Positions 39-50,466 of a DNA stretch of 64,000 bases are shown here, in pieces. A program made the position numbers and the translations under genes. The stretch is from NCBI RefSeq assembly GCF_020085105.1, contig NC_058042.1, forward strand, positions 21,232,001-21,296,000. The letters run 5' to 3'. Below the pieces are notes generated by a model. The model ran no database searches. It had not been told where the DNA came from and was given only the letters and a program-made list of their open reading frames with translations. The stretch's first letter is position 1, and the number at the start of each line of letters is the position of its first letter. The DNA comes from Siniperca chuatsi. Its lineage: Eukaryota; Chordata; Actinopteri; Centrarchiformes; Sinipercidae.

Positions 39-3000
39 GTTCATCCAGACATCCTGCCATACACAGAGGAAAGTATGAGGAAGAATGGAGTTCACACTCT
101 GTCAGAGTTGGAGCAGCTTTATAACAAGGAGGTGAGGTGTTAGTTTGTGGAATATTGTAATCGCAACTTCCAACTTTGACTGATTTATATACACTGAAAT
201 CAGCATTGCCTCTTTTAGAATATTTGACATCTGATGGCAATGTTTTTCCTGCTTCAAGACATTTCACATGTAGATATTGTAACTTACAACATTTAAATAA
301 AATTTGTAAACATCTTACCATTCAATACCAATCCTCTCTCTCTTTCTAGCTGGTAGTGGGAACAACCTGTATGGGCATCAAGCATCCTATTTTCACACGT
401 CGGCGGTTTGATTTCTGCATCGTAGATGAAGCTTCACAGATCAGTCAGCCTATCTGTGTGGGACCCCTGTTCTATGCCAAGAGATTTGTCCTGGTTGGAG
501 ATCACCAACAACTGCCTCCAATAGTACAAAATCAGGAAGCTAGGTAAGTGTGTGTGTGTGTGTGTGTGTGAATGAGGTGTGTGTTGAGGAGAAAATAAAA
601 AATTATTGCCTTAATTACACTTATTGTAGTTGTTTGTCTTCATGAGGGTAAAACATGAACACTGTCAGTTTTCACATAAATTTATGGTTAAGGTCAAGGT
701 TCAACATGTTGGGAATCTGACAGGTAATTAATGCTAATAAAGTTAAATAATGTACATAGAAATATCAGTTATCAGGTTGTTGTTTTTTTCGGGGTTTTTT
801 TCCCTCCAGGTCATTTGGGATGGACGAAAGTCTATTTAAGCGACTAGAGCTCCATAGTGAAGCAGTGGTCCAGCTCAATGTACAGTACCGGATGAATAGG
901 TAAACCTCCACACACAGACAACACTTTATGCTTCTGTAATCTTTTCTTGTTTATTATGAGCTCATCTTTAGACCATTCAAATGGCACTTGAACTCTTAAC
1001 CGCTAATAATACGTTAGCATCTTAATGGAGCTTAGACATAATATGAATACAATAAACTAATAGCCGCTCTGTTTTGCTTTAGCATTGCAGAGAAAACATT
1101 TTCCGTTTACAAGACAACAATAAAACAACATGGCAAGAGTCAAAATGATTCCCACTCCATGATAAAATAGTATGTGCTCTGTGTTTTTAGGCAGATAATG
1201 TCTCTCAGTAACTCCCTGATGTATGAGGGCCGGCTGGAGTGTGGATCAGAGAGGACGGCCACGGCCCTGCTCACCCTGCCATTCCTGCTTTCTGTCCAGT
1301 CGGAGCTTGGTTCCTACTCTAAGACTGATCCCCAGCATGACCTGGCTTGGATACAGTCCACATTGTTGCCTAGCAACCCTGTTTGCTTCCTAGATTGCTC
1401 AATGGTTGGTAGACTATACAGTGCACTTCAAGCAGAAAAGATGTTGATATTTGACTGGTGAAAGGTCAAGGAATTTAGTCACCTGCTTCACCTGTTGAAG
1501 AAAGTGACTTATGTGAAATGAGAAAAAAAAATTGTGTGAGTAACACAATGGAGGTCACCTGGTCTACATCTTGTTTCTCTCCGCTGCTTCTTTTAGGTGC
1601 CAGCACTGGAGTCTGTGGAGCAGGGAGGCATAAGCAATCACACTGAGGCTGCTCTAATACATAAGCTGCTTTCACTGCTGATAAAGGTACATCAATCACT
1701 TGCCCAATTGATGCTGAAGTATTTATAGAATAATACAGTTGGTTTTTAAAGTCCTGGCTTAATTTTTTGGGTCATTAGGTTGTTTTTAATACAGTGAATG
1801 AAAATGAAAAAAGTGTAAAAAAAAAAAAATAAATAAATAAATAAAAAATAATAGAGAAATAATCAGCGTAGCTAGTCATCTCACTAACCCCTGCTTATTT
1901 GTCTTTCTTTAGGCAGGGTGTAAGCCCGGTGATATAGGTGTTATCGCCCCCTACAGACAGCAGTTAAAGAGTATCTCTGCTCTGCTGCAGTCCTCGGCTT
2001 TCACCGGTGTGGAGGTGAATACAGTGGACAGATACCAAGGACGGGACAAAAGTCTGATAATTTTTTCTTTTGTCAGGAGCACGGCAGAGGAAGGAAACGT
2101 AAGTGTTTCTCTTCCTGTCTCCCCCTTTTGACTCTTCTTTCTCTTCTCTTCTCTATGCCTCAATCTCTGCATGAATGAACAAGCAAATGAACAGGTGAGT
2201 AGGAAACTGACCCAATTCTCTCCATTCTGCTTCTCCATTCATAGTTAGGGGAGCTGTTGAAGGACTGGCGTCGCCTGAACGTAGCCATTACCAGGGCTAA
2301 ACACAAGCTGCTTATGGTGGGCTCTGCCACAACACTACGACGCTATGCACCTGTGGAGAAACTACTCAACCATCTCCAGCAAGAGAACATGATATCCTTT
2401 AAATTACATGTTAAAACTTGTTGCTACCACTAAACATTTCTTCATTTGCAATACAAAATCTGATTCTCTTTAATGAGTACTGGTAGCATTCACTCATTCA
2501 TTTATTGCAAATCTGGTGTTAATAAACTGGTTACTGCATGAGTTTCTTTCTTCAGTGCTGTACAACAGAATTAAGTGTTAATGTAATGAAAAGTCAAAAT
2601 TGAACAGCAAGTCACCAATGTTCCCAACAAGAGGCAATAAGACTGCTTCAATGCAGTTTTTGAATTACTTGAAGGCATACTATGCAGGATTTGTTGGTTG
2701 CTGTTAAACACACCATTCAAAGTTGGCCCCTCCTCCCTGACTTGAGCAAGCCAGAGAGCAGCAGTGGTCGAGTGAGCTAGAGAGTGAATGAAGAGAGGGA
2801 GTGGCGTCAGTGAGAACAAAACTGTGAATCCTAGAAATAAAACGTTATTTTCTGATTGTTTCACAGTGTCACAGACCTGCAGCTCGTTATGCATCTATGA
2901 CACAGACAGAGAGCAGAGGAGACAGCGATGTAACCGGGGGAGATACGGTGATACGTTTTTATAGAGTCCCGGCCTCACACCCTGCACCACTGCCCAAATA

Positions 3001-3304
3001 CCCAGAAATGTCCCGAACACAGCGAAATAATAAGAAACTACAGGCAGAGGGCATCGTCTGCAGATACAGGCACCGCCACACACTTCTAGTGGGTCATAAG
3101 TGATGATTGAGAGGGATTATTTTTATGAGTCTATACATTGTTTTTTAGAAAAATCCTGCATAGTATGCCTTTAACCTTTGTTCTGTCGTCTTTGTTTTTT
3201 CTTTCATGTATTCTGTGTCTACAAAGTGTTTTCCTGAACCCTTACTTCACATTATCCAGCTCCCGCCAGCTGCCCACAAGGCTTTACCAAGCATGCCCCT
3301 GTGA
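39..3304 (+). CDS. dna2: DNA replication ATP-dependent helicase/nuclease DNA2, C-terminal part (5' end outside window)
   Basis: Eight exons code for the last 355 residues: 39-131, 350-543, 810-899, 1191-1404, 1597-1686, 1913-2098, 2245-2391 and 3251-3304 (stop TGA). Phases agree at every junction. DNA2 processes Okazaki flaps and resects DNA breaks in nucleus and mitochondria; this part is the superfamily 1B helicase core. Visible motifs in order: CMGIKHPIF, motif II VDEASQ, motif [11 protein letters not shown], motif IV QYRMN, motif [12 protein letters not shown] and motif [15 protein letters not shown]. The nuclease domain and Walker A lie upstream, outside the window. The reading is nearly collinear with human DNA2, including the tail (IIQLPP here, IIDLPS in human). 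The last intron (2392-3250) is not GT-AG but fits an AT-AC minor-class intron. Reading through it instead gives a short unrelated tail, which I reject. The final ~10 residues are shorter and different from the human end. Confidence 0.96.
2392..3250 (+). other. dna2: Probable U12-type AT-AC intron of dna2 (last intron)
   Basis: The intron begins ATATCCTTT (2392-2400), the exact minor-spliceosome AT-AC donor consensus. It ends TTCAC (3246-3250). TTCCTGAAC at 3231-3239 is one base from the TTCCTTAAC branch consensus and sits about 12 bases from the acceptor, as U12 introns require. Joining 2391 to 3251 gives ENM-IIQLPP, matching the human EKL-IIDLPS. No GT-AG alternative that I could find restores this match. 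The intron also houses a MITE at 2672-3172. Confidence 0.88.
2672..3172. mobile_element. MITE-like DNA transposon inside the dna2 AT-AC intron
   Basis: Terminal inverted repeats of about 20 bases: AAGGCATACTATGCAGGATT at the left end and its complement at 3153-3172. Flanks read TTGA (left) and TTAA (right), possibly a mutated TTAA target duplication of the piggyBac type; this assignment is tentative. The short open frames on both strands inside it are not coding. Nothing like a transposase is present, so it is non-autonomous. Confidence 0.7.
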
Positions 3305-4800
3305 TGGAAGTCTGTGAAGCCATGATGGTGTTTCAGGTCACAGGTCTGTCTCACAGTGGAGCAGCTAGTGGCTGATGATCACCTCAACAGGGCAGAGATT
3401 AAAGCACAAGCACTGAATGATCTATTAGGAGGCTGTGATCAAACATATGAGCAGCAAATACTTGAGTGAAGTGTCAGTGGCATTTGCAGCCTACTGTCAC
3501 CTCATGTACAGCTCCACCTGTGATTATTTTGTCCCTCCCAACAAACACTTGGTGGAGTGTAACTGAAGATACAGATTACACTAATCAACACACTAGGACT
3601 GACATCTGAAGAACATGTGGGCTTTCAAGGGGACACTGCCTCAGATTTGTACCACACTGAGTAAACACTGTTTTATAAGAATTTTTAAAAGAATTCTTTC
3701 TAAGAATTCATACCGACAGAAGTGGAGTGGAGTGTCAAGACCTCATAAACGTAATCTCCATACTGAACCTCAACAAGCGTAAGCCAAAGACCTTTAGACA
3801 ACAGATCCAATTGTTAATGTTGATCACAATTAAAGGCAACACACTTGAAGCACTCCAGTTTTATATTTATCAGTAATTAATGTCTATGCTGTGAAACAAG
3901 GTACTGAGATGATGAACAGCTAAAATAGTTGCTTACAAAATTTTGTACTGAATCCATAAAATGGACTTACAGTTAAAATGTGTGACACTGGTGTATTATG
4001 GTACTGAGCATCAAACCAACTAGGACTGGTCACTATTCATAAACTGATATTTTGGATCAAATACCACTATTGATACACTGTGACAATATGTTATACTTGA
4101 TTATTGGTACTTTTCACTAAGCTTTTAAACACACAACACAGAAAATCAGTAGTAATGTGAATACGGAGCTCAAACTGGTAGTTATAGTTCATGTCACTCA
4201 GCTACAACAGTCAGATGTTGTATAAAGGATAAGGTGATTGCTGTAGTGTATGATTTCTGATTTAGTGGATCATCAAATGTTATTTAGTACATCACTGGAC
4301 TTCATACTTCAGACATACTTGATATTGCATCAGTAGTACAGATTTTAATCTGTGAATGGACTACACTGGCCAATAACAAACTGGTATATAAATAATTTGT
4401 TTCTCTATAAAAACATCTGTTTACATTACGCTGTCGGTAACAGCTAAAACTAATGTAAAACCAGGTTTTTGAGTCAGTTTCTTTGCGTATGGCAGATTAG
4501 ATGAGTAGATCTGAGGCTGTACAGAGACGGAAAGATTACAAAGCAAACTACCTGGTATCATAGTAACCAGTTAAAACTCTAGGAATTTGTGGGAAACCAC
4601 AATTCAGAAAATAATATTCTGCTTTAACCATTTTGCCAATGTAACCTAATGCTAATGAACTGTGACAACGTCCTGATAACTGTGATTCTACCTTTGCCCT
4701 CAAGCTCTGATTTTACATGTTTTGTTTCTGTACGTTATGTTTTAAAACTTTTTTAATATTGTGATTTTTGTCTTTGTGTCATGTGAATAAATAATACAAA
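3305..4800 (+). other. dna2: dna2 3' UTR with poly(A) signal
   Basis: About 1.5 kb without an open frame follows the dna2 stop. AATAAA at 4786-4791 is the best poly(A) signal. The extent is inferred; no transcript evidence is available. Confidence 0.55.
4786..4791 (+). terminator. Poly(A) signal AATAAA, dna2
   Basis: Canonical hexamer about 1.48 kb after the dna2 stop, followed by an A-rich then T-rich stretch. It lies about 110 bases from the pbld signal on the other strand. Confidence 0.5.
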
Positions 4801-5022: not shown

Positions 5023-8000
5023 CTACAGTGTGATTGTTCCCTGCAGGACAGTGACCGTCTGTCCAGCTATGTTGATTCTTCCGTCGTCTCTCACTTCTAG
5101 TTCAAGCTCCCCGCCTTGACTGGAGCACTGGTAAGCTACGCAAACACATTCAGAGGATAATATGAGTGTCAGTCTGCTTCAGTTCAGTAGTAATGGAGTA
5201 TTTGTTGTTAGAGACAACAACTGTCACATCAAATGTTAATGATTAGTTAACCTTAGTTAAATTAATTACCCAACATTTTCTTCTTTCCTAGTTTCTTACA
5301 CCAGTAGCTACCTAGCACAGTGTGGGCAGAACCTGCAAGGACAGAAAAGACACAAGACCAGAAGATGGTTACAGAATTTTACAGATACATTTCACAAGAC
5401 ACATTGAACGTTTGCCAACTTTACTGCATGAGTGCTAGACATGTAGATGTTTTAGTATGTTTGCCAATACATGTTGCTTGTATGCTAATGTGTAGGATTA
5501 CATAATTATCAGAAAGTACTTTACACAACTTTACAATTCAAGCCATTTGCATGCTAATATGATCACACACACACTGTAACCCAACAAAGACCGTGTCTGT
5601 GTGTAGTAGTAGTATTAGTGGTCTACCAGTGACAGGATCCTCAGGGATGCCATTCCACGGAGCAAAGTATCTGGAGTAGAAATCGTATCCTGGCTGACAG
5701 TCTGGGGATCCTATTGGCAGATATAGAAGGGCATTTTGATTGACCATGGCTTATTGTTTTCTTACAGTGCTGGTCTCAACAGTGTTCTGTTATCATGTCA
5801 TATTTGTCGGCCAATGGGCAGAAACCTTTGGAACTTGACATGCAACATAGAGGGCATTTTGAGGCAACAAACAAATGTTTCTTAAAAGACTTATCTTTGT
5901 TACCACTGTAAACTTGAAATGACTGCATGTGGTCCGGCCCATTAAGTCTTAAAGCTGTCCAACAATATGATCTAGCTAAAGGATCTAATTTTTTAGCTCT
6001 GGTTACCTTTTATGGTGAGGATTAGTCCTTTGACTCTTCCACTCCTCTCACTGCGCTGAAGAGCAACAGGGTCAACTTTCAGACTGGTTAGCACTGACCT
6101 GGAGAAAACGCACACATGCAGCACATAAACAGAGTCACAAACAAACCTGGCAAGACAAAAGTGAGGGATTTAGGAAACTGGGCATGACCTAGAGACAGAC
6201 AGGCGTGTGTTTGAGAGATTAGTGGTTTGAATTTCTGGCTAGCTGTGTGTAGTTTTATGGGGATGTGAATGAGTGACCGGCTCCCCAGCGAGACACTTTA
6301 TCCCTTTTGCTCAGCTGCTCAAGGGCCAACAGTTAAAGACTCAACACTGCCCAAGTGTGGATATGAATAACTATTATACTCTATACTTCTGTCTCTTAGT
6401 CGGTGTGTGTGCTTTGATTTTTAACCTGTCACAGCTGTCAGCCAGTCGAACCATCAGTTTCTCAGTGTTGGAGCTCATATAAACATCCTGGATTGGGTGG
6501 TTTCCAACTGCAGCCTGTATCACAAATGCAGTTAAGCATGCACACACAAAAACACCAGAATGTAACCACACTGGCACCTACTATACATATAGAGGGGTTC
6601 ATGTAGACAGTGAAGCAGGAGTCATTACTGTAAAACATGCACATGCAGAGACAAAACCTGTCTTACTGACCTTGATGATGTCTCTGAACTCATTGGGATC
6701 CTGAGAAAGGGGATTTAGAACAAAAAACTGTTACAGTAAGGGCATTTTGTAGTGTTACCTTGCAAAGTTACTGGAAAACTTTCTTTTGGAAAATCTTGCA
6801 GTGCTAATGCAGAAGTTCTGCTAATCCAGCTACAGCTGTATGTTACACTATTGTGGGATGGTTACAGAGTTTCTGGATCTCACAAAAGCTGTTTTCTTAA
6901 TAGTGATACTGAGTTACATGATTGTGTTGTGGGCAATGAAACATGAATAGTATAGACTGACAAGGAAAGGACTGACTGTGTGTTTTATTGGATGTTCGTC
7001 ACTATATTGTTTTCTAGCACTCAGCTGCATATTGATATGTTTTCATACCTTTGTAGAGAGAAATAATTGAACCTGAAATAGCAGATGTCTGCCCTGCGAC
7101 ATTGTCCTGATGTGTTTATCTGACAATATACTGTACCTCCTGGGTGGGTGGGTTGAGAGGAAAGTCCATGACGTAACCTTCCCCCTGCTGGGCGACAGCC
7201 AGATCTCCACTGCTGGTCTCAAACACCAGTGTGGGATTAACATTCTCTAACAGACGTAACATATATACATAGAATATTATGCTCACAGGCTTGCTGATGA
7301 ACTAGGTTTACTGAAGGTTTACATGTAACTGACTAACCATAACACGTATTTGAAAATGCCTCCCAGTGAAACTTTTCTGTGCATGCCTGTGTCCCAAATC
7401 AAGCCAATGCATTAACTGGAAATGTGTGTGTCTATGTGTGTGTTTTGTATTTTACTCTGATGCTGAAACAGCACTGCTGCAGAGGCCAGAGTGGCATGAC
7501 CACACAGATTCACTTCAGTGGTAGGTGTAAACCATCGAAGGCGGAACCTTGATCCTGTTAATCACATTGTCAGACAGGTGCTTTAACACACATACAACTT
7601 CAACATGTAGTCTACACACAACTGTCCAGAGTCTGCCAGTGAAAACCACAATTATCTGAAACAGTTGGCAAAAAATGGTTTGTTTCAAATTAGGCAAGAT
7701 TTCATCAGATAAAGGGAGGTTTATACATTATTTAACATGTGAACCTAAAACACAGATGTGTTGTGTTAATGTATACAATAAGTAATTACTTAGCTGCAAG
7801 CAAATTGTATACCCAAGAGGACCGAGTTATGTTTACTTAAGGCTATATAATACTTATTCTGGAATGAGATTAGTATTTTGGTATAAAGGCAAAATAATCC
7901 TGTTCATTAAGATCAATACAGTTTATCTAGTTCAATTACTTTAAACACAACTAATGTAAAATTGATGGTTCTTAACAAGCATGAGTAAATGTGCCTAATA

Positions 8001-9535
8001 ACAGGGTTATTAGCAGGATTATTGCATGTAAACTGTTAGATAGCCGGTGACCGTAGTGTGCTTGAGGTGCGCATACAGAATGACTTTAATTTCTTCTTCA
8101 AATAATGTGAAGCCTGAGCCCTTTTTTAAGCTCTGTAGTTATATATGATGACTTTAGCTGAATTTTGTTTTGTTTTTTTTACATACATTCAAATGATGAC
8201 TAAATGTAAATGACACTGACATTCCTCTCTGTGCATTTATTGAAACACTGAGTGACTACACACTGCATTTTTAACTGTGACAGCTCATTGCATTGTTCTT
8301 GCCATTCCCAACAATGCTAGTCTTAGCTGTATGTTTAACATTGTTACCTGTCACTGAGGACAGGTGTTTTTTTTCAGTTTGTGCCACTTTATTACCTTCA
8401 ATGATTTACATGTGTATTATGACTTTATAAAAACAACTGCTTAAGTCAGTGGTATCAATTTAATCTGTTTGTTTCTCATCAGGGTGCCTGGATTTTCCAA
8501 ACAGATCCTACAGTGAAGGAGGTAAGTGAGGGTTGACCAGACTTGCAGATACATCCTGCACTTTCCTCTGAAGGTAAAATTGTTTGTGTTGTTTTATTCC
8601 ACGAGTCCTGTGTCTGCTGTGCTTTATGTACTGTACTCGCTGCTACGCCATATGTACAGTTGTGCCCGTTTAGCATATTTTATACAGAATAATTAAGTGA
8701 AGCCAGTTGGAAGGAGTACATTACCATAAAATTAACTGTGCACATTGGATTCTGCATACCCAAACTGCCAAATGTCTGCAAATTACCATGAAAAAAAACT
8801 TTTGAAATCTCACCTTAATAAAATCTTTAGATATAGTGTTTTTATGGCTTCTTCTATATCCATTGTGAAGACAAATTTAACATTTTAGCCCCATTACTGT
8901 TAAGACTCTAGCCATAGCAAAATCACTATGTTCTTTGTTCCAGCAAACATTTTAATAATTTAAGATATACTCAATTTCACAACTTCCGTTGGCCACTAGC
9001 AGGAACTTAAGTTTTTTTAAAAGTCTATTTGTGTCTTTATAGTTACCAAGATCCACTGAATTGCGTGCAACACTTACATCACCATACAAACAACCTCAAT
9101 AACAACACATGGGTAGTAAAGGAATGTAAAAACATTGGGGTTAATTCTTGTAATGACATGCTAACCTGTCTCAGAAAGGTGCATTTCTGTTGAATCCATC
9201 TAACAAATATATTGAACCCTATATGGTCTGACCTGTAGTAAAATTGTCAGAAGGGTTGATCCTGGTGATGAAAGCTGTTTCTGACAGATTCATCACTGCT
9301 GCTATCTTCTGATACAAGTCATCAGTCAGCTCCTGTTAGAAACGCATACCATACAAATATAAGTCTTTTGTTGTGAGATGTAATCATTTTACAACACATT
9401 GTGTAACCATGTGACACATTACTGTACTTTAACCTAAATATTCTTACTCACATGCATGAGTGGACAAATTGCAGCGGGGTTTCCCTTGAACGGTAAATTA
9501 GTGAAAGCATGTATCGTAAATACTGGAATCTCCAT
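5023..9535 (-). CDS. pbld: Phenazine biosynthesis-like domain-containing protein (PBLD), complete
   Basis: Ten exons read from high to low coordinate: 9535-9452, 9332-9233, 7554-7456, 7246-7137, 6700-6671, 6514-6426, 6098-6007, 5710-5627, 5332-5270 and 5135-5023 (stop TAG). They sum to 864 bases, 287 residues, against 288 in human PBLD. All junctions are GT-AG and in phase. The protein has the two-lobed PhzF isomerase fold. GNPAA is at residues 19-23, NLSETAF at 43-49 (E46 is the position of the catalytic glutamate in bacterial PhzF), [12 protein letters not shown] at the end of lobe one, and [18 protein letters not shown] in lobe two. The physiological substrate of the animal protein is not settled. 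The MEIPVF start matches the family. The frame, however, stays open through a splice acceptor at 9569-9570, so longer N termini are possible (exon candidates at 9666-9758 and 10364-10459). It is convergent with dna2 and divergent from hnrnph3. Confidence 0.95.
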
Positions 9536-10459: not shown

Positions 10460-11388
10460 TTGTGACAGACGTCTGACATATTTCTATCTGGGGATATATT
10501 TTGATATGCAGTGACAGCGTACAACAGTTGGATATTGAACTAGTTTGCCTTGTACGTTTGACCGCTGTCAGTGTCCTACAGTTAGCCTTAGCTGTTAGCC
10601 GGCTAACTGCTAATGTTATCAAGCTAATATTAGCACGTCAGCCTGACCGTAGAGAAGCGTTAGCATCATTAGCTAACCCAGAATCCAGGCTAACAAATAT
10701 TCTCCTGTGGCGAACTTCAAAGAAGTAACTTTACTAAAGAATTAATAACGTCTTGTTAGGATAACGTTATGTCTGGAAAGGTCTTAGTGAGTTGAAGTTG
10801 AACTGTAGATACGTTAGCTAGTAAGCTTCTTGGTTTTACCAACACTTTGAGACACAGTTGGAAGGAGGAAGTAACAAACGTTAACGTTAGCTTATTTAAC
10901 TGTTGTGACAGCTGCAGTAACTCGCATTATAGTACTGAGTTATTAGATATGTCTTACTGCGGTTTTGTTATTGCATAACGTTACTGTTTAAAATTCCGTG
11001 TACAATGTTTTCGTATCTGGCAATTGTTTAGTTTCCAACAGGCTGCAAAACTGTTGCTTATAACACCAATATAAGCTTCCTGCAGAAATCATGTTGTGGC
11101 ATGTATTATTACACTGAGGGTATCTGTGAATGATATGCATGTTTCATAGTTGAATGCTCCTGCTGTGTTTAAGATGATAACTGTACATATAGAAGAAACG
11201 CAAATAAATAATCTGTCACCATTAATACTCAATGCACACATAAGCCAAATAAAAATGGCAGACAGAAAATTAGAAGAGCAGTAAGCTACCTAATGCAAGA
11301 CTATAAAGACATTTATAGTGTAGTCAAGTACTATTGGCACAGTAGGTTAATGTGTTGCTGCTGTGTTGTGCTCTCTGAGGCAGTGAGG
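10460..11388. promoter_or_regulatory. Probable bidirectional promoter and 5' region of pbld (-) and hnrnph3 (+)
   Basis: Head-to-head start region with no long conserved ORF. It carries repeated GTTAGC/GCTAAC and AACGTTA motifs (10585-10640, 10759-10766, 10811-10820, 10877-10892, 10975-10982). No clear TATA box is seen. An hnrnph3 5' UTR exon presumably lies at about 10500-10750; an acceptor (CTCTGAG or GAGGCAG, 11374-11385) just before the hnrnph3 ATG supports a spliced leader. The exact start sites cannot be read. Confidence 0.45.
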
Positions 11389-14300
11389 ATGTCTTTGAAC
11401 GAGGAGGGTTATGTGGTTCGGATCAGGGGACTACCCTGGTCCTGCACGCAGGAGGAGGTGGCCAGTTTCTTCTCTGGTGAGAATATACACACATCTATAC
11501 AGCTTGAGGCATCAACAGTATTAATAAGTGTAAGACTGAAATTACATCTAAAACAATAAACTCAACAATTTTTCGTAGTGTTGACATTTGTGATTATATT
11601 TCACAGCTGTTCGTCCACTTTAGTGAATATTATAGATTTAATGCTAGTAAACATAAATAAATAAACATAAATTCACAGAAAACTGTCTTCACACAGAGAA
11701 TCTAAAATCTTTATTATTTGCATTTTAGTCACCTCAGGGCTCCACTGCAACACCATTCTGCTCAGCTGTACAATAGAAATCTGCCATTAAACTCTTTTTT
11801 TTTTTTTTCTCTCTCTTTATCGGTTGCATGATTGTAAGTGGAATCTAGCTGGCCTCATTGACATTTGATTTGTGACTCTGTCTCCCTCCTACAACATGTC
11901 TTGTTACACACAGAAACCATCTGGGTTTCTCAACCTTTTATGAGCTGTTACCTCATCATAACATTTCAAATTTCACTTTACTCCAGCCATTATAGCGCTG
12001 TCAGGATCTCAGGTGATTCAGAGAATGAATGGTATATTGTTGGATTCTACTTTCTGGAGCTCCAAACAGCTCAAATTAGATGGGATGCAGTTATTCCCTC
12101 TATCGTGTGTTTTTCTTTTATGCCTGGCATCCTTTCAAGGAAATCTCAATCAATCTTACTTATTTACAGACTGTGACATCGTTGGGAAAGTAAACGGAGT
12201 GTGTTTCACCTACTCTAAAGAAGGCCGTCCCAGTGGAGAGGCATTTATTGAGCTGAAAACAGCAGAGGATTTTAAAAATGCCCTTGCCAAGGACCGTAAA
12301 TACATGGGACACCGATACATAGAGGGTAAGCAATATAAACAGTCATAACAGACTGATGGACAGTGAGTGTTTAATAATTGCTGCATTATATGAAACTACT
12401 GTTACAAACAAGTGCACCTTACTCTCTTGCTGACATCTCATCAGTTTACTTTTGAGATCTTGTTTCCTGTGTTTGCCACACACGTAATAGTTGGCTCAAA
12501 GTTGGCTATATTGATTTCCCTGTACAGACGGTGTAGTCCCTCATTCGTCCAGGAGTGTTCTATCGTAGAAAAGGTTTCAGTCGTAGTCATCTGGACACTG
12601 TTTTCAGAATCAAGACGTTTCGGCTCCCATCCGGAAGTCATTCTCAATTGTGAAAAAATGGGACGGGAACTGAAACTGACCTAATAGTTTCAAGATGGCC
12701 CAGTAAAGTCAATAGGCCTGATTACTGGGCCATCTTGAAACTATTAGGTCAGTTTCAGGTGAAACTAGCTATTTACAGATACTCAGGCAGATTCCTTCCT
12801 GAGGGCAGGGCTTATGTAACTCAGAGTAGTTTAAATTTCCAGTTCCCGTCCAATTTTTTCACAATTGAGAATGACTTCCGGATGGGAGCCGAAACGTCTT
12901 GATTCTGAAAACAGTGTCCAGATGACTACGACTGAAACCTTTTCTACGATTTCCCTGTACAATTAGACATTTCCCAGCTTCAGTGTGAGCTTTAAATCAA
13001 ACTCTAATGGAAAAAAAGTATTATTCTAACTTTAATTGTCCTTTCAGATCTTCACATGTGACATGTGTGTGTGTCCATCTGTCTGTGTGTCTGAATCAGT
13101 GTTCAAGTCCAACTGTAGCGAGATGGACTGGGTGCTGAAACGTAGTGGTCCTGCTGATTATGACAGCTGCAGTGGCTGCATGCTGAGACTTAGAGGCCTT
13201 CCCTTTGGCTGCAGCAAGGAGGAGATTGTTCAGTTCTTCTCAGGTATATGGACATTTAAACTTTCGTCTAATTACTCTGTTGAATTTTACTGATATTACA
13301 ACATTGATGTTAATCTTGACTATAGTTTTTACAGACACGCTGTTTACTTGTAGTTTGTTTTACTGTCGACAGTGTAAGGGTGCTGACAGAACTGAAACTA
13401 GCTTTTAAATGTGCAAAAGAGCATCTTAGCTTGCCATAAGCGTCATTAAATAATGTCAAGAAATAGTTCCAATGAAATGAGTTGAAAAAGTCCACTATCA
13501 GTTCCTTACATTGGTCCAAATCTAAAGGCTCAGGTAGAACTTGAAGCCACAATATGTAGACTGTCTGATTATGAAATCTGATTATAGCGTCTTACATTAT
13601 TCTGATGGCAGGATTATGTTTGTGCAAAAGTGGAACAACAGCCAGCTTTACATTTTCAGGCTCTTTCTTAAGCAGTACCATGATATAAGAAAATGTGACT
13701 TTGATTGTATTGTGAAAAATCCAACATACTGCCAGCTGCACTTTGAACGGTGCTTTGCACTTTGCTGATCAACCCCACAACAACACACCACAACATGAGC
13801 ATACACTAACATTCAAAGTAGATTGACAGATTTGCCAATACTTAACACTATCTTTTCATATTTTGGATTTCACTAATATTAGAGAGTGGTATTCATTTGA
13901 CTTATAGTCAGTCAACATGTCTGTGTGTCATGGCCCAAAGGCCTAATGTATGTTTGTTCTTGTAGTATAGACATAATGTGTTGACTAATATGTCCTTGTT
14001 ATGAATTGTTAGTATGCCTCTTAACATGTTACTGTTATGTTAACACTTTAATTAGCATGCTTATGCTATATGGCATTGATATCATGCCTCCTTAAGGGGG
14101 GTTAAAAGATAGGATGGGCTGGGCTGGTTTGACTGAGGGGAGACAGTCCCATGACACTGATCTGGGGTCAGTACTGTGATTCTGCTTACTGGCAGCCTTT
14201 TATCTAGTATAATCAACACTTGATAATTATTATGGGCCAGTGTTACTCAACACTAATAAATAATAATTCTGCCAGTGACCTAAATTTGGTTGTGTATCAG

Positions 14301-17300
14301 AGAAAATGTTTCGTCTGAATCCACTTAAATTTTATAGCTGCTGACTCCAGGCCAGTATTTGTTTCATTCCCCCGCTGGGCACCTTACAAGTGTAACTTCA
14401 GTCCACTGACATGCCCCTTTTTAATGCAGTCTTATCAGATACTACAGCTGATATTTATTTGCTGTCATGACATATATTAATCCTGAAAGCTCCAGTGATG
14501 CAGTGGGTGTTGTTCTATCTCTTCTATATATCTATCAGTCTACCTACCGACCTATGTATTTATGTGTGCTTGGGTTGAAGGGTTGAGAATCGTGCCAAAT
14601 GGGATTACTCTGCCAGTGGACTACCAGGGGAGGAGCACAGGGGAAGCCTTCGTGCAGTTTGCCTCAAAGGAGATAGCAGAAAAGGCTCTGGGGAAACACA
14701 AGGAAAGAATAGGGCACAGGTGGGACAGACGGGAAAGGGACGGGCTGGACTGGGTTGGGCTTCTATTGTAGTATTTAATGACTGGAAATATTAGAGTAAT
14801 AATAATATTCATGGGATGGGTTCTGTTATAGTTGAATGATAAGCATGGGTTAGTGTGCTAGAATAATTATGGCAAAACAAAGATAAAGTGGGTAAATTAA
14901 TTGGGCGGGTCATGTAATATTTGTTAAAATGCTAATGGGATGGGTTTATGTATTGTAACTATGGTGACATGTTTAATAATGGGATGAAAGGTCATGTATC
15001 TAATCTGTAAGTTAAAGGTGGTGTGAGTATTGTATACAATAGAAAGTTTTACTGTTGGTCATCTAAGACCTGGGAGCTCTATTTAATTGTGTTAGAGCAA
15101 CATTTGGCACTTCATTTATATCCTTTAATACATATGTATCTCATAGATAATTTACTGTGGAAGAGGGGATTAAGCCTAGAATTATCAAATTTCTTTCTGC
15201 AGTTCTAAATCATTAAAATGTAGGGATGCCCAGATCAATCGGACTCTATCAGTAGAAATATGCGATCAGGATTAATGTTTTCTAGTCGCCGTTCACGAAA
15301 ACCAATCATTGTGTTTGTTTACTAGCGGATCTTGACCTCTCCCAATATGGCGACCGCACATACTCATAACGGGTACCGCGGGTTACAGCTTTAATGTCAA
15401 ACAGCTTTTTCATTTAATTTTAATATAGTCATAGAACGCCCGTACAAGTATGTGAAAATGAAAATTGGATTATTGCTTTTAATTTTTACTCAAATAGCAC
15501 ACGTGTAAAATTATAATGCTATTGTGTAATTACATTTTTATTTTCAAGTTTACAGTATCATTTGAAGACAGTCCCCTATACGCTTCCATAGTTTTCGGTA
15601 ACTCATCAAAGCGAGGGAGAGACGGTGACAAGAGGCAGAGATGGTGGCGTCAGAATTAAAAAGAATAAAAAGTTGAACGATTTCTGATTCTGAGCAGTTT
15701 GTTTATTATGACTTGATGAACAAAACTTTGGTCAACATATAAGACAGCGTTATGTGGTTCATTTGAATTTCAAGGACTTTTTAAGCACTTTGTAAAAAAG
15801 GGGGGGTATTTCCAAGGTATTCCTGTACTTGGATTTTTTAATACTGCTATACCAGCTGCTATTAAAAGAAGAAAAAAAAACAAACAATCAGTATCAGCCG
15901 ATATGGCTCATAGATGATCGGCAGTCGGTATCGGCAGCAAAAAACGGGATCGGGGCATCTCTATTAAAATGATCAATGCAACACCTAAAAGCCCTGTTAG
16001 GATTTTCTGTACTGTAAGTAACAAGAGGTGAGGTTGGCGTAGAAGTCCTTTACTACAGCCCTAAGCCCAGCTAATGATGGGACTGTGTTGAGGTTGTTCA
16101 GTCATTCAGACACTCAGCTCCAGGTTAAAGCTATGTAGACCACTATTTAGAATATTTGTCTTTTGTGTGTTTATCTTCTCTCTGTGTGAATCATATCTAT
16201 GTATGTAACCCGAGCTAAGCCATTTCTACACCTTAACCCTCTCCTCTGCCACCCTCCACCCCATCGGCCTCTCATATTGCAGGTATATAGAGATTTTTAA
16301 GAGCAGTCGTAACGAGATCAGAGCCTATTATGAGCTGCCCCGGCGGGGGTTGGGAGGCCAGAGACCAGGGCCCTACGACAGACCCATGATGGGGGGCCCC
16401 AGAGGAGGGTTTTTTGGGCCCGGGCTTGGCCGCGGTGTGGCTCTGATGGACACCATGAGGAGCGGAGGGGGCTATGGAGGAGGTAAGCAGAGTTTTCTAG
16501 CTCTGTTAGTTTTCACAAACCAGAAGAATATCTTGAACTATTTGAAATATTGTAGAAAAGGTTTCAGTCGTAGTCATCCGGATTTGAAATATTATCATAC
16601 AATTCATCAACAAAAACAGTCAAATCAATAACATACAGTCAGATGTATAAAGTTATCAGGATATTAGACGTTTCTGATATTGTATCAACCTTTTTTGACT
16701 TAAAAACTTAAGTTAGCCCTTACACTTTATGGTTCACTGGCCCACACTAAGTGCTATTATCTCCCTTTTCTGAGTAAAACTATCCTGCTGGTCTGTTATT
16801 CAGTCCTGTCTTCAGCGTTGTGGAGTAGTTGGTGATGTGAAAGAATGAGCCCTACTTCAATTGTGTTTTGTTATCTATTTGTTAAATTACAGTTTGACTT
16901 TTCCTTTCTTTCTCTGTGTTGTGGTTTGTATCCAGGTTACAGTGGCTTTGACAGCTACAATGGTTTCAACAACTACTGTTTTGACAATGGCATGTTTGAT
17001 GAACGAGTGAGAGGAGAGAGGGGAGGAAGAGGTAAAGTCCAAACTTAATTTACCCTCTAGAGGGTGGCATTTAGATGCACTGAGTTAATGTTTGAAAGCC
17101 TCAGTTTATACTTATAGTTTAGCAACCCTGCTGAAAGGCTCAGTGTTTTCCAATATTAGATTTTGTTTACATTTTTATCAGTGTTTGTTAAAAAAATAAT
17201 TTTAAAAACCTTTCTAAAAATGTCTATACCTAAACATTTTTTGGTTTAGTTTTACATTGTATTGATATGAAAAAATAGAATTAGGATTGGGTTTTGTAAA

Positions 17301-35100: not shown

Positions 35101-38100
35101 ATACAATTAATATCCAATGCTGTCCAATGTGTGTCTGCATAACTAATAGCACTAATCTGTCTGTTAACCACACACATGGGTAGAAACTACCACAGTCCAC
35201 CATGGAGTTACAGTCCAAAAAATAGTCGATTAATCAATTAGTCGATAGACAGAAAAATAAGTGGCAACCATTTGATAATCAATTCATTGTTTCTATAATT
35301 TTTCAAGTTAAAAAAGTCAAATATTCTCTGGTTCCAGCCTCTCAAAAGTGAGGAATTTCTGCTGTTCTCTGTTGTAACGTGAATATATTTGGGTTTTGGA
35401 CTTTTGGTCGAACAAAACACTCACAGACAACTGAGAATGTCACCTTGGGCTCTGGGAAGTTGCGCTGGATATTTTTTCCACTATTTTTTGACATTTTATA
35501 GTCTAACAATTTATCGGGAAAAAAATTATAGATTAATCGTTAGTTGCAGGCCTAAAAAGTAGTAACCAAATATGATAGGTTATTCCAAATTCTTAATTCC
35601 TGAATTATTTATCTAAAACACTATATAGGAATCCCAAATGTTTTGTGGCACTGTTTTTATTTTATTTCATAATCGTGTCTTCAGGGATGGAATCAGACCT
35701 CATTTACACCTGCCATTAAAGGTAAAGTGTGGGTGGTAAGCTGCATAATGGCTCATCTTGTGATCAGAGAATGGCGGGATCTAAACAAAGACAATTCCAC
35801 ATTGCTTCACATTACAAGTACAAGTATCAGTCTGTGCAGGGCGTTTCCATTGGTGAGAAAATGTGTTTGCACTCAGGACAAAGTCTACACGCATGGAGTA
35901 GAAACATGACACAACAGCGTCTGCTCTCCATCTGTCTGATGCCAAGATATAGTGACGAAACAGACAAAACTGGTTCATGTCAACTAAGTAGGCACAGGAA
36001 GTGGACATAAGTCAGACATTTATTTTTCTACTTAATATGGTGCAATCCAATCATAGAGAGAACAGAATGGAGAGTATAATGCAAACCAGCTGTACACCGG
36101 CTGTAATGCAACCACATCATCAGATTTGTTAGACAGCATACCCACATTAAGCCCACATTTTAATGTCTGGTCTAAATGTGTTTCGTTTAGTCAAATGGTC
36201 TAAATACTGTCTCAGAGCAGTGGTTACCTGAGAGTCCAGGTCCTCGCCTTTGACACAAAGATTAGCATCAATGACGTTCAGGCCCACCAACAGGCCCACT
36301 ATCACTGCTCCCTCCTCCTCCAGCATCAGCGCCGAATTCTCATAGAAATCACTGTGGTGGAAGATAAAGCACATTCTCAAACACTGAAGGGAGCTCTAGT
36401 AAAAGAAAAAGGGAGTGGCTTTATTTTAATGTTTTAGCTCTGTAGTGTTGTTCCTGTGCATGTGTTAGTACAAGCTTTAATTTACGACATCAAATTACGT
36501 TCTGGGTACTATCAATTACTATTATTACTACTATTAACTGCTGGATTTGTGCACAGACTTCTCATTAAAATACTGAATTTAATTTATTTATCTATTTATT
36601 TAAATACTATTTTATTTCATCATTATTATAAATTAATAAAAAAATTTTGTTGATATCTCAAACTTGTAAACATGACTAACTTAATGGAATTAGTTGACAA
36701 TAAGAAAAATGTAGAATATCAAGGGCCTGATTTATCAATGAAGAATTGTTACAATTTCACTTTCATAGCTAAAGTTAAATTAGTTATCTAAAGGTAAATA
36801 TTAAAGGTATAATTTTCTAAACAAGTCAGATTTACCTATTGTACATCATACATCTTCTTTGTGTGTGCCGCCATGTGTACATACAGTATGTGTATGTGTG
36901 TACCTGAGCAGGTCTTTTCTGGTGATGAGGAGTCGTAGGTAATCGGCCAGCCGCTTCTGCATGAGAGCCAGACGCAGCCAAGCTCTTGCCCTGCCTAATG
37001 GAGTCCTAGAAAACACACACACACAGGTGATTAGATTAGATTATAGGAGGTTTTGAGGGTGTAAGACTGGTGGCACTGGGGCATCTTTAGATTGGTCTTT
37101 GTTTTGTTTTCTTGTTTAGATGTAGTTAGGTTCTCATTTGTGTTCCTTAATGTTTATTGCAGTCAATGGTTACATGGGCTTATCTAATTAACTGCTCCTT
37201 CTTTTCAAGACTTCAATCCGAATGTTTCATTTTGCCTCTGTGGCATCTCAGCAACTAAAACTGTGTTATCTAACCTACTATCTAACTAAAACTAGCTACC
37301 TCTTGGGTCTGTACTTATGTTGCAAAAACGCTGCTCTGCTACATGTCTGTTGGTCTGACTCAGCACCACCAAAGGAAACAGACTCTGTTCTCTATCTAAA
37401 ACAACACATCTGTTCCCCATTTTTCTGCATCAGACAAGACCTGAATATTACTCACTTGATTCCCTGCCTGGAAGCTCTACTATGTAGTGACTGATAACAA
37501 AGTAAAGCATGACATGGAAATCATGTACATGAATGAGAGTGAGCAGGAGCCTGCTTGCAAATTACTGTAAAACTTTAACTAAAAGCCGAGCCCTGATTAA
37601 ATGCTGAGTCCCTTTTACTGGCTGGGTGTGGCTACACGTTTTGTTAGTCCACACAGAAGGGGTCTCACTCCCAGAAGGAACAATAGCAGACATTGAGGAT
37701 GGTTACAAGTACCTTGGAATACCACAGGCAAATGGCACCACTACTGATTTTGCTTTTAAAAAGGTGCCTATTGCCCACAACTGACGTAGTCTTAACCCTG
37801 AGTCTTTCTAACTCTTAAGTGCTTGTCACATCTTTGGAAAATGTGTCTATACTGGCTCTAAGAGTTACAAAGAGAATAATAACAATAATAATAATAAAGA
37901 AGTAGAGAAATAGTGACAAGGGAGAAGTGAGGCAGCAGCAAGAGGAAAGGTGAAGTGAAAGTAAATCACACTCAGGTATTTCCCTGCTCTGGCTCAGGTC
38001 ACAGTCTCATGTTTCTGGTGTGTGTGGTAGTGCTGTGGCTCATGTTCCTCCAGCATGATGTTAGGTTAAGTTGTGTGTAAGCACACACGTGTGTGTGTGT

Positions 38101-47904: not shown

Positions 47905-49381
47905 TTAGTCCTCAAACTCTGCAGCATAAAGCACTTGCTGGAATTTCATCCGCACCTCCATTCTTTTTTTAATGGTAAGCCTCTTCAGTGAGGGCAGAAG
48001 GCTGAGCAGAAACAGTTCATCTTCATCTCTGAGGTTGGTGAGGGCATCTGCAGAACTTATCTCAGTTTCTGTGGTGGTTTGCCTTTTACGTTTAAGAGAG
48101 ACGCCCATCTCCTGGTGGTTGTTTGAACAGGCCTCCACAAGAGAAAAGCTAGTACTAACGACAGGCAGGGGACCATGCTGCTCCTTGTCGTCTTTATCTT
48201 GCTCTTTCTCCAGGTCATCACCACTTCCAGCTCCCTGCGTGGCATGAAAACAGCATGTAGCATTACGGGTTAGCACAGACAACAACATTGATAACAAGTT
48301 TCAGTTTCTTTGGCAATCACAGCCAGCCAAATCAAAGTCCCCTATACAACCTATACCTCCTACTGGGAACACAACAGGTTGACAGGTTTGACAGGGTTTC
48401 TACTTTCCTTCAAGTCTACAGATGAAAATAACTATTTAACTATTAAAAATAAGCAATTTGGTATTATTTTTGTGCTATTCTGTAGAGCCTTACTGATTAA
48501 TTGGCAGGCAGATATTATGGGCCAATATTAGCTTTTCACAGATATATCGTATTGGCTAAAATATAACAAGAAGTTGCAGTACAGAAATGCCAAAAATATG
48601 TTTGAGGTAATTTAGTTTGTCCACCAGAGAACACTGACAACTACACTTCTGCATTTGTAAATTGTCCAGCTCAGTACATATCTTATTACAACTCTTTAAT
48701 AACGACATTGAAAGGCCATGCACACCCCCAAAGGTGTTTTCAGTTATGCTTGCTCAAGACCAGTCAGATCACACCCACACGTTCCTCAGGGGGTTTAATA
48801 AGCCAAATAAATGAAATCACCTGTGTGGGTGTAGTCTGGATGTGCAGGGCCTTTAAGAAAAAAAATTACTATGAAATATTAATATCTCTTTCAGCCTCAA
48901 AACTCCAGTAACTGTCAGGCTCTACTTCTTCTTTTCCTTTCGGCTGTTACCTTTCAGGGGTCGCCACAGCGAATCATGTGCCTCCATCTAACCCTGTCCT
49001 CTGCATCCTCTTCACTCCAATTAACTTCATGTCCTCTCTCACTACATCCATAAATCTCCTTCATTTCCTCTCTCACTCTACTACTTTGCCTATTATTCTG
49101 TGAAGGCAAACTTACTAGTATTAAACATACTTAAAGTGTTTTGAAGTTCTGCTTTGATACACACATACAGTGGCATTGCAGTCAGTTTTGTCATGTTTTA
49201 GTTGTGAACTATGGGTTTTTCACCAAGTGCTTTAATTTTGAAAACTAAACCCGGATGTTCTGAGAGGCAGATGTAAATAATAATGTAGCTTTGCTCCCTG
49301 GATGTTTTTATGCGTTTAGCTTGTAAAAAAATCAATGAAGTTAGCATAGGGATACAAAGCTATGTATATATCGTTATACTA

Positions 49382-49448
<67 letters not shown>

Positions 49449-49987
49449 CTATGTATAGATTAATCAAAGAGTAAGTATGATTACAGTTGGCCTATTGTTA
49501 GCAGTGGCTATGTTTCCATAGGCCACGTTCAATATAGTTAGCTAAAAACTGCTAAGTTACGTTAATTAGCTAGCTAGCAGTTCAAAATCAAAGCCGTGAA
49601 AACCTTTTAAATGAATGAATGAATGAATGAATGGCGGACACACACCTCGTCGGTCTCCCCCATGCCAGCTCCTGGTCTGGGTTTGACATAGGCGCTGAGC
49701 CAGGCCAGCTGGTTGTACAGCACCGGGACGGGCCTCTCCACCGGGTTCTCGTCGTCTGTTAGCACAGGGACGTTTCTCTTGGCCATTCGCTTCTTCGCTT
49801 TACAGAACTTGTCGCGTAGATTTTTCCATTTTAGCTTCACCTCTTCCTCCGACTTTCCCATGTTGTCTGCGATCTCTTTCCACGACAAATGCCCCTTCAG
49901 ATTGTCCTTGTAGTCCCGCCGTGATTGATCGTACAGATTCGGGTGCTCACGGATCAAGTCCGCGAGCTTCTTTTCTAAAGTGTTCAT
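47905..49987 (-). CDS. MADF-BESS domain protein (Adf-1-like), two exons
   Basis: Exons 49987-49646 and 48234-47905 (stop TAA) join in phase 0 through a GT-AG intron: 672 bases, 223 residues. Residues about 5-100 form a MADF (SANT/Myb-like) DNA-binding domain: LADLIREHPNLYDQSRRDYK, SWKEIADNMGKSEEEVKLKW and KNLRDKF. An acidic linker and a basic KRKR patch (163-166, a possible nuclear signal) follow. A BESS motif closes the protein at 184-222: DEDELFLLSLLPSLKRL and RMEVRMKFQQVLYA. MADF-BESS proteins are often DNA-binding transcriptional regulators and BESS mediates protein contacts; the role of this one is unknown. AATAAA lies six bases after the stop. It may be one of the many fish MADF genes, perhaps domesticated from a PIF/Harbinger-type element. 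Confidence 0.85.
48920..49085 (+). repeat. Dispersed fish repeat ('gggtcgccacagcgaatc' type)
   Basis: The phrases GGGGTCGCCACAGCGAATCA and 'ctccatctaaccctgtcctctgc' are very frequent in teleost genomes. Family not assigned; probably LINE or SINE 3' sequence. Confidence 0.55.
49385..49444. repeat. (AT)n microsatellite
   Basis: About 60 bases of AT repeat in the MADF-BESS intron. Confidence 0.95.
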
Positions 49988-50466
49988 TTTGTGTTCAGTT
50001 TATTTACTTCATCGCGAAGTCCTTTCGTCGGCAGACAACGATCTTCCTTCGTCTTCATCGCCAGGTTGAAGTTGGCAGAAGGAAATACAAAGCTTCATTA
50101 ATTCAAAATAAAAGTATAGTCTTTTTTTTGCAGTAACGTTAGGCTATCCTTGAATAAAAGATCACATTTTGTTAGGAAATGTGAATGAATGAATGATTTT
50201 CCTTATATCACATTCTCCTATATTAAATTAAAATAGATAGGACGTCCATATATATATTCCATAGATTTCTATTTTATATTTAAGATTCTTGACTTGCAGT
50301 ACTTTTCTTTCTTTTCTCTTACTATGTTTATTGTGACCATTATGTGCCAAAATACCACAGTTTGGTATTAAGGCAAATACCTTGTATGTTGACAACCTAC
50401 TTGGCAACAAACCTGATTCTGATATTGAATGATTACAGCTCCAGCAGATATCGATTCAATTCAAAC

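Follow-up and report, generated by a model that had tools for sequence, protein, structure and literature searches.

The last intron of the DNA2 gene of Siniperca chuatsi carries the signals of a U12-type AT-AC intron

Where does the DNA2 gene of Siniperca chuatsi end, and by which kind of splicing is its last coding exon reached? The 3' part of the gene occupies the first 3.3 kb, on the + strand, of the 64-kb stretch of DNA analysed here (the window, C1:21232001-21296000, from a genome of 718.8 Mb in 65 contigs). A preliminary description had proposed that the gene closes with an AT-AC intron of the minor spliceosome. The three splice signals (donor, branch site and acceptor), the reading frame and the homology of the C-terminus all agree with this proposal, and we put at about 95% the probability that positions 2392-3250 are the last DNA2 intron, removed by the minor (U12-dependent) spliceosome. 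The signals, the frame and the homology are observed, while the splicing event itself and its snRNP contacts would follow from the known properties of this intron class. The features are collected in Table 1.

Table 1. Features at the 3' end of DNA2, in window coordinates.
Feature	Position	Strand	Basis or remark
Penultimate DNA2 exon	2245..2391	+	phase 0 end; gene model
Last DNA2 intron, 859 nt, AT-AC, predicted U12-type	2392..3250	+	signals, gene model, homology
5' splice site ATATCCTTT, C at +5	2392..2400	+	exact match to U12 AT-AC consensus
TAA reached on intron retention, after 13 foreign residues	2431..2433	+	translation
Multi-copy inverted-repeat element	2673..3170	+	flanks TTGA / TTAA; probably non-autonomous DNA transposon-like
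U12-type branch site TTCCTGAAC; likely branch A = 3237 or 3238	3231..3239	+	8/9 positions
3' splice site CAC	3248..3250	+	sequence
Last DNA2 exon, coding part: 17 residues + TGA	3251..3304	+	homology, splice join
AATAAA, candidate DNA2 poly(A) signal	4786..4791	+	motif only

The identity of the gene is established by similarity over its length. The gene model, built by hand from the window and 16 kb upstream of it, comprises 22 exons and 21 introns, the 5'-most exons, recognised by eye in the upstream sequence, being left out, and gives a single reading frame of 1079 residues in which the first exons are missing. The alignment of residues 33-1075 of the model to residues 32-1056 of 5ean_A scores 1154 bits, against 167 bits for UPF1, the family that comes next; this places the protein among the DNA2 helicase/nucleases. 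The count of 1079 includes 14 residues at one junction that have no counterpart in DNA2 in the alignment to 5ean_A, and moving the exon start concerned 42 bases downstream removes them and gives DRRELLKLRN against DKRELLKLRN in DNA2. The DNA2 structures used for comparison here (5ean, 5eaw and 5eax) are of a protein that we take to be from mouse. Besides the candidate poly(A) signal of Table 1, AATAAA/ATTAAA motifs are found downstream of the DNA2 stop at 3398 and 3829, and the region upstream of DNA2 holds a stretch that, by eye, resembles a decayed reverse transcriptase of a non-LTR retrotransposon.

Joining position 2391 to 3251 keeps the frame in phase 0, so that ENM is followed by IIQLPP, the C-terminal stretch that the preliminary description had anticipated, and the last exon contributes 17 residues. 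Residues 1-62 of the 66 joined residues align to DNA2 ...LNAEQLILDLPSREHESLS of 5ean/5eaw/5eax, with no gap at the junction. The placement of the last exon was assessed by scoring all 127,924 peptides of 13 residues that the six frames of the window give against the C-terminal 13-mer of DNA2. The peptide at 3251 scores 27, which is the best of the 10,000 found in the 10 kb downstream on the + strand (runner-up 20) and joint first in the entire window, tied with an unrelated peptide at 37255 on the - strand. The last exon can thus be placed by homology, with no recourse to splice signals, and its edge coincides exactly with these signals.

The signals at this edge are those of the minor spliceosome. 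The consensus of U12 AT-AC donors is ATATCCTT (T), and that of the branch site is TCCTTAAC-like (PMC2831892). The extended 5' splice site ATATCCTT(T) is present in full at 2392-2400, where ATATCCTTT had been said to be an exact match and is one. A branch site of the type TTCCTTRAC lies near the 3' splice site, as had also been described: TTCCTGAAC, at 3231-3239, differs from TTCCTTAAC by a single mismatch, a G for T at position 6, and therefore agrees at 8 of 9 positions. Its second A (3238) stands 12 nt before the final intron base, and either A of such a site is usable as the branch adenosine (PMC3584512). The intron closes with CAC (3248-3250), an AC 3' end directly before the exon start defined by homology. 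A short distance from branch site to acceptor is usual for U12-type introns, and that of the DNA2 intron lies in the same range. Under the proposed mechanism, the U11 snRNP would recognise ATATCCTTT at the 5' splice site, the U12 snRNP would pair with TTCCTGAAC so that the branch adenosine is left out of the duplex, and CAC, 12 nt further on, would serve as acceptor, the product being a DNA2 that ends in the 17 residues of the last exon.

The donor 9-mer is present twice on the + strand of the window and not on the - strand, the second exact ATATCCTTT being at 15118 (+), inside a region resembling HNRNPH3. Genome-wide it occurs 7722 times (3850+3872) in 718.8 Mb, or about 5 times per million positions per strand. 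The reversed pattern is commoner (7069+6840 = 13,909), so the donor motif is not enriched in the genome and is informative solely in its place. When no more than one mismatch is allowed, the branch motif stands at a distance of 9-20 before 24 of the 8117 AC dinucleotides of the window (both strands, DNA2 site included); when YAC and a distance of 9-14 are imposed, three sites are found on the + strand of the 64 kb, again with that of DNA2, and five on the - strand. The presence of both motifs at the two ends of a junction defined by homology would thus be far beyond chance.

The remaining introns of the gene offer a comparison within the same model. Twenty of the 21 introns are GT-AG, and a full U12 donor with a U12 branch site is found solely in the last one; the exon edges of the other 20 were picked by GT/AG and an open frame, which partly builds in their GT-AG state and keeps the comparison from being fully independent. 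The donors of these 20 introns show 2-7 mismatches to RTATCCTTT and their best branch sites 2-6, against 0 and 1 in the last intron. The nearest of them are intron 8 (donor GTAAACTTT with 2 mismatches, branch with 3), intron 7, which is GT-AG with 2 mismatches in its branch and 4 in its donor, and intron 9, with 2 in its branch and 5 in its donor.

Could the same region be spliced otherwise, or not at all? A conventional U2-type GT-AG (or GC-AG) intron nearby, next to which the AT-AC signals would be coincidental, finds GT dinucleotides at 2353, 2410 and 2420 and AG ends that keep the frame at 3226, 3259 and 3269, but the donors read CCT/GTGGAG, CAT/GTTAAA and CTT/GTTGCT, and we regard this possibility as very improbable. 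Among 112 listed donor-acceptor pairs (GT/GC-AG and AT-AC/AG, with donors in 2330-2434 and acceptors in 3180-3299), 28 keep the frame (12 AT-AC, 7 AT-AG, 5 GT-AG and 4 GC-AG). With each of the five GT-AG pairs, either residues ahead of the junction are lost or ISFKLH... is inserted, none of the nine GT-AG or GC-AG pairs joins ENM to IIQLPP, and this join is given by 2392/3250 alone among the 112. The terminal dinucleotides by themselves are insufficient to define the spliceosome, and some sodium-channel genes have AT-AC introns that are spliced by the major (U2) machinery; all of these carry a G at +5 (PMC2831892). The DNA2 intron shares their AT and AC ends but has a C at +5, together with U12 signals at the donor (all 9 nt) and at the branch site, which makes removal by the major spliceosome the least probable of the readings considered.

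It might also be supposed that the last exon is no longer used and that the gene normally ends by read-through at 2431-2433. The frame does stay open for 13 residues past 2391, and AATAAA/ATTAAA motifs lie within the intron at 2521 and 2836. The false tail announced by the preliminary description would run to the TAA named, its length being 13 residues instead of about 14. This tail is nevertheless unlike DNA2, scoring -18 against the C-terminal 13-mer where the downstream exon scores 27, and that exon is open, matches DNA2 and has splice signals. An abandoned last exon accordingly appears as improbable as a nearby GT-AG intron, and splicing of 2392-3250 by the minor spliceosome is the reading that we retain.

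The machinery that this splicing would require is at least partly recognisable in the genome. One match each is found for the U12 snRNA (contig C21, 131.1 bits, Rfam cut-off 53) and the U11 snRNA (contig C17, 115.9 bits, cut-off 39), with 44 and 40 candidates scored among about 46,000 at first look in the U12 and U11 searches, respectively, and none of 14 control genomes matched. TCCTTT in the donor is a possible pairing partner for AAAAAGGGCTTC in U11, and TTTCCT in the branch region for GAGTAAGGAAAA in U12. The U12/branch duplex is predicted at -6.6 kcal/mol vs -8.6 for a consensus sequence, and the G at position 6 of the branch site should break the U12 pairing beside the bulge. Such energies are a weak test: 284 of 9141 background 14-mers pair with U12 as well as the branch site does, and for the donor they are useless because the motif is A/T-rich, 1678 of 9141 background 13-mers pairing as strongly with U11. 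CHHC zinc fingers of the U11-48K type (PF05253) are observed three times in the genome, two of them about 2.1 kb apart (C10:25351368-25353535) and one at C9:2473206-2473280. As this finger occurs in other proteins too, the matches prove little as candidates for SNRNP48, and PF05253 as a U11-48K marker also matched one of the 14 control genomes, an archaeon.

Much of the length of the intron is due to a repeat element, which is a new detail of the DNA2 intron. Its inverted arms (2669-2692 and 3151-3174, 24 nt each) are 96% complementary, and the 506-base stretch that they delimit (2669-3174) has, at E of 0.001 or less and counting itself, at least 68 matching pieces in the genome, a lower bound since 40 of 926 candidates were scored. 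Among the 20 loci listed, that of the window included, the left end is recognisable (at most 5 mismatches) in 11, one second, weak left-end match being left out; it is preceded by TTA in 10 of the 11 (TTAA/AGGC), the exception being the copy of the window, with TTGA. The right end is recognisable in 12 of the 20 and followed by TAA in 9 of these 12 (GCCT/TTAA), and neither end is recognisable in four loci. To judge from these flanks, the element was probably inserted at a TTAA target site, and such a target together with inverted ends would fit a piggyBac-like non-autonomous element. Without the element (498 nt), the intron would measure about 361 nt. Folded whole, the intron is not unusually stable (z 0.48; as good a fold is reached by 11 of 20 shuffles), though the inverted repeats do pair.

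Other features of the window can be described more briefly. A PBLD-like gene lies at 5023-9535 on the - strand, tail-to-tail with DNA2; its first two coding exons match the PhzC-PhzF domain (5e-15), the remaining exons having been read by eye. The exons at 11212-16631 (+) we take to be HNRNPH3-like: Pfam gives no family for two open reading frames there, and a piece of 30 residues matches RRM_1 at 0.016, below the cut-off. The order DNA2-PBLD-HNRNPH3 presumably resembles that of human chromosome 10. At 47905-49999 (-), adjoining open reading frames match a MADF DNA-binding domain (7.1e-16) and a BESS motif (3e-13), and may perhaps form one MADF-BESS gene. Neither an Rfam match at the gathering score nor, with ARAGORN, a tRNA is found in the 64-kb window.

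With respect to what is known, the DNA2 intron has the donor, the type of branch site and the AC end of the U12-type AT-AC introns gathered in U12DB, SpliceRack and IAOD; it differs from the typical ones by the G in its branch site and by the repeat element, in nothing essential. The rarity of AT-AC introns, invoked in the preliminary description, holds among introns as a whole but not within the U12 class, where their share is 26% in human, 22% in zebrafish and 12% in both fugu and Tetraodon (PMC7367187 Table 2). Although U12 introns that are conserved reportedly cluster in the 5' portions of genes (PMC2426677), 122 of the 722 minor introns of mouse occupy the first or the last place in their gene (PMC6717393), so that the last position is not odd for that of DNA2. 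A quick search of U12DB reported in a review found a U12-type intron in DNA2, the same gene and the same class, the passage giving neither intron number, subtype, species nor position (PMC10676203). The literature search, which reached its sources in part, yielded no published position for this intron, and DNA2 is not mentioned in the accessible main texts of PMC9501576 (on zebrafish zrsr2) and PMC6717393. Since both the U12-type AT-AC class and the U12DB listing for DNA2 exist, neither this kind of intron nor its occurrence in DNA2 is new; the intron's position in Siniperca chuatsi is the one read here from the DNA.

What would retention of the intron entail? In DNA2, 13 other residues would take the place of the last 17 and, as no exon junction follows the stop at 2431, decay of the transcript by a junction-dependent route is not expected. 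A speculative and unlikely extension is that such a transcript could escape nonsense-mediated decay and that the activity of the minor spliceosome, perhaps altered by the repeat, would decide in what proportion two DNA2 C-termini are made. DNA2 is listed among the genes upregulated in cancer cells transfected with U12 or U6atac snRNA (PMC11187153), and a published suggestion on Rothmund-Thomson syndrome links both DNA2 and CRIPT to the minor spliceosome (PMC10676203). For Siniperca chuatsi, our reading would yield the correct C-terminus of DNA2 where gene finders restricted to GT-AG introns would fail, and through this gene it would connect DNA repair with the minor spliceosome, with a modest importance beyond annotation.
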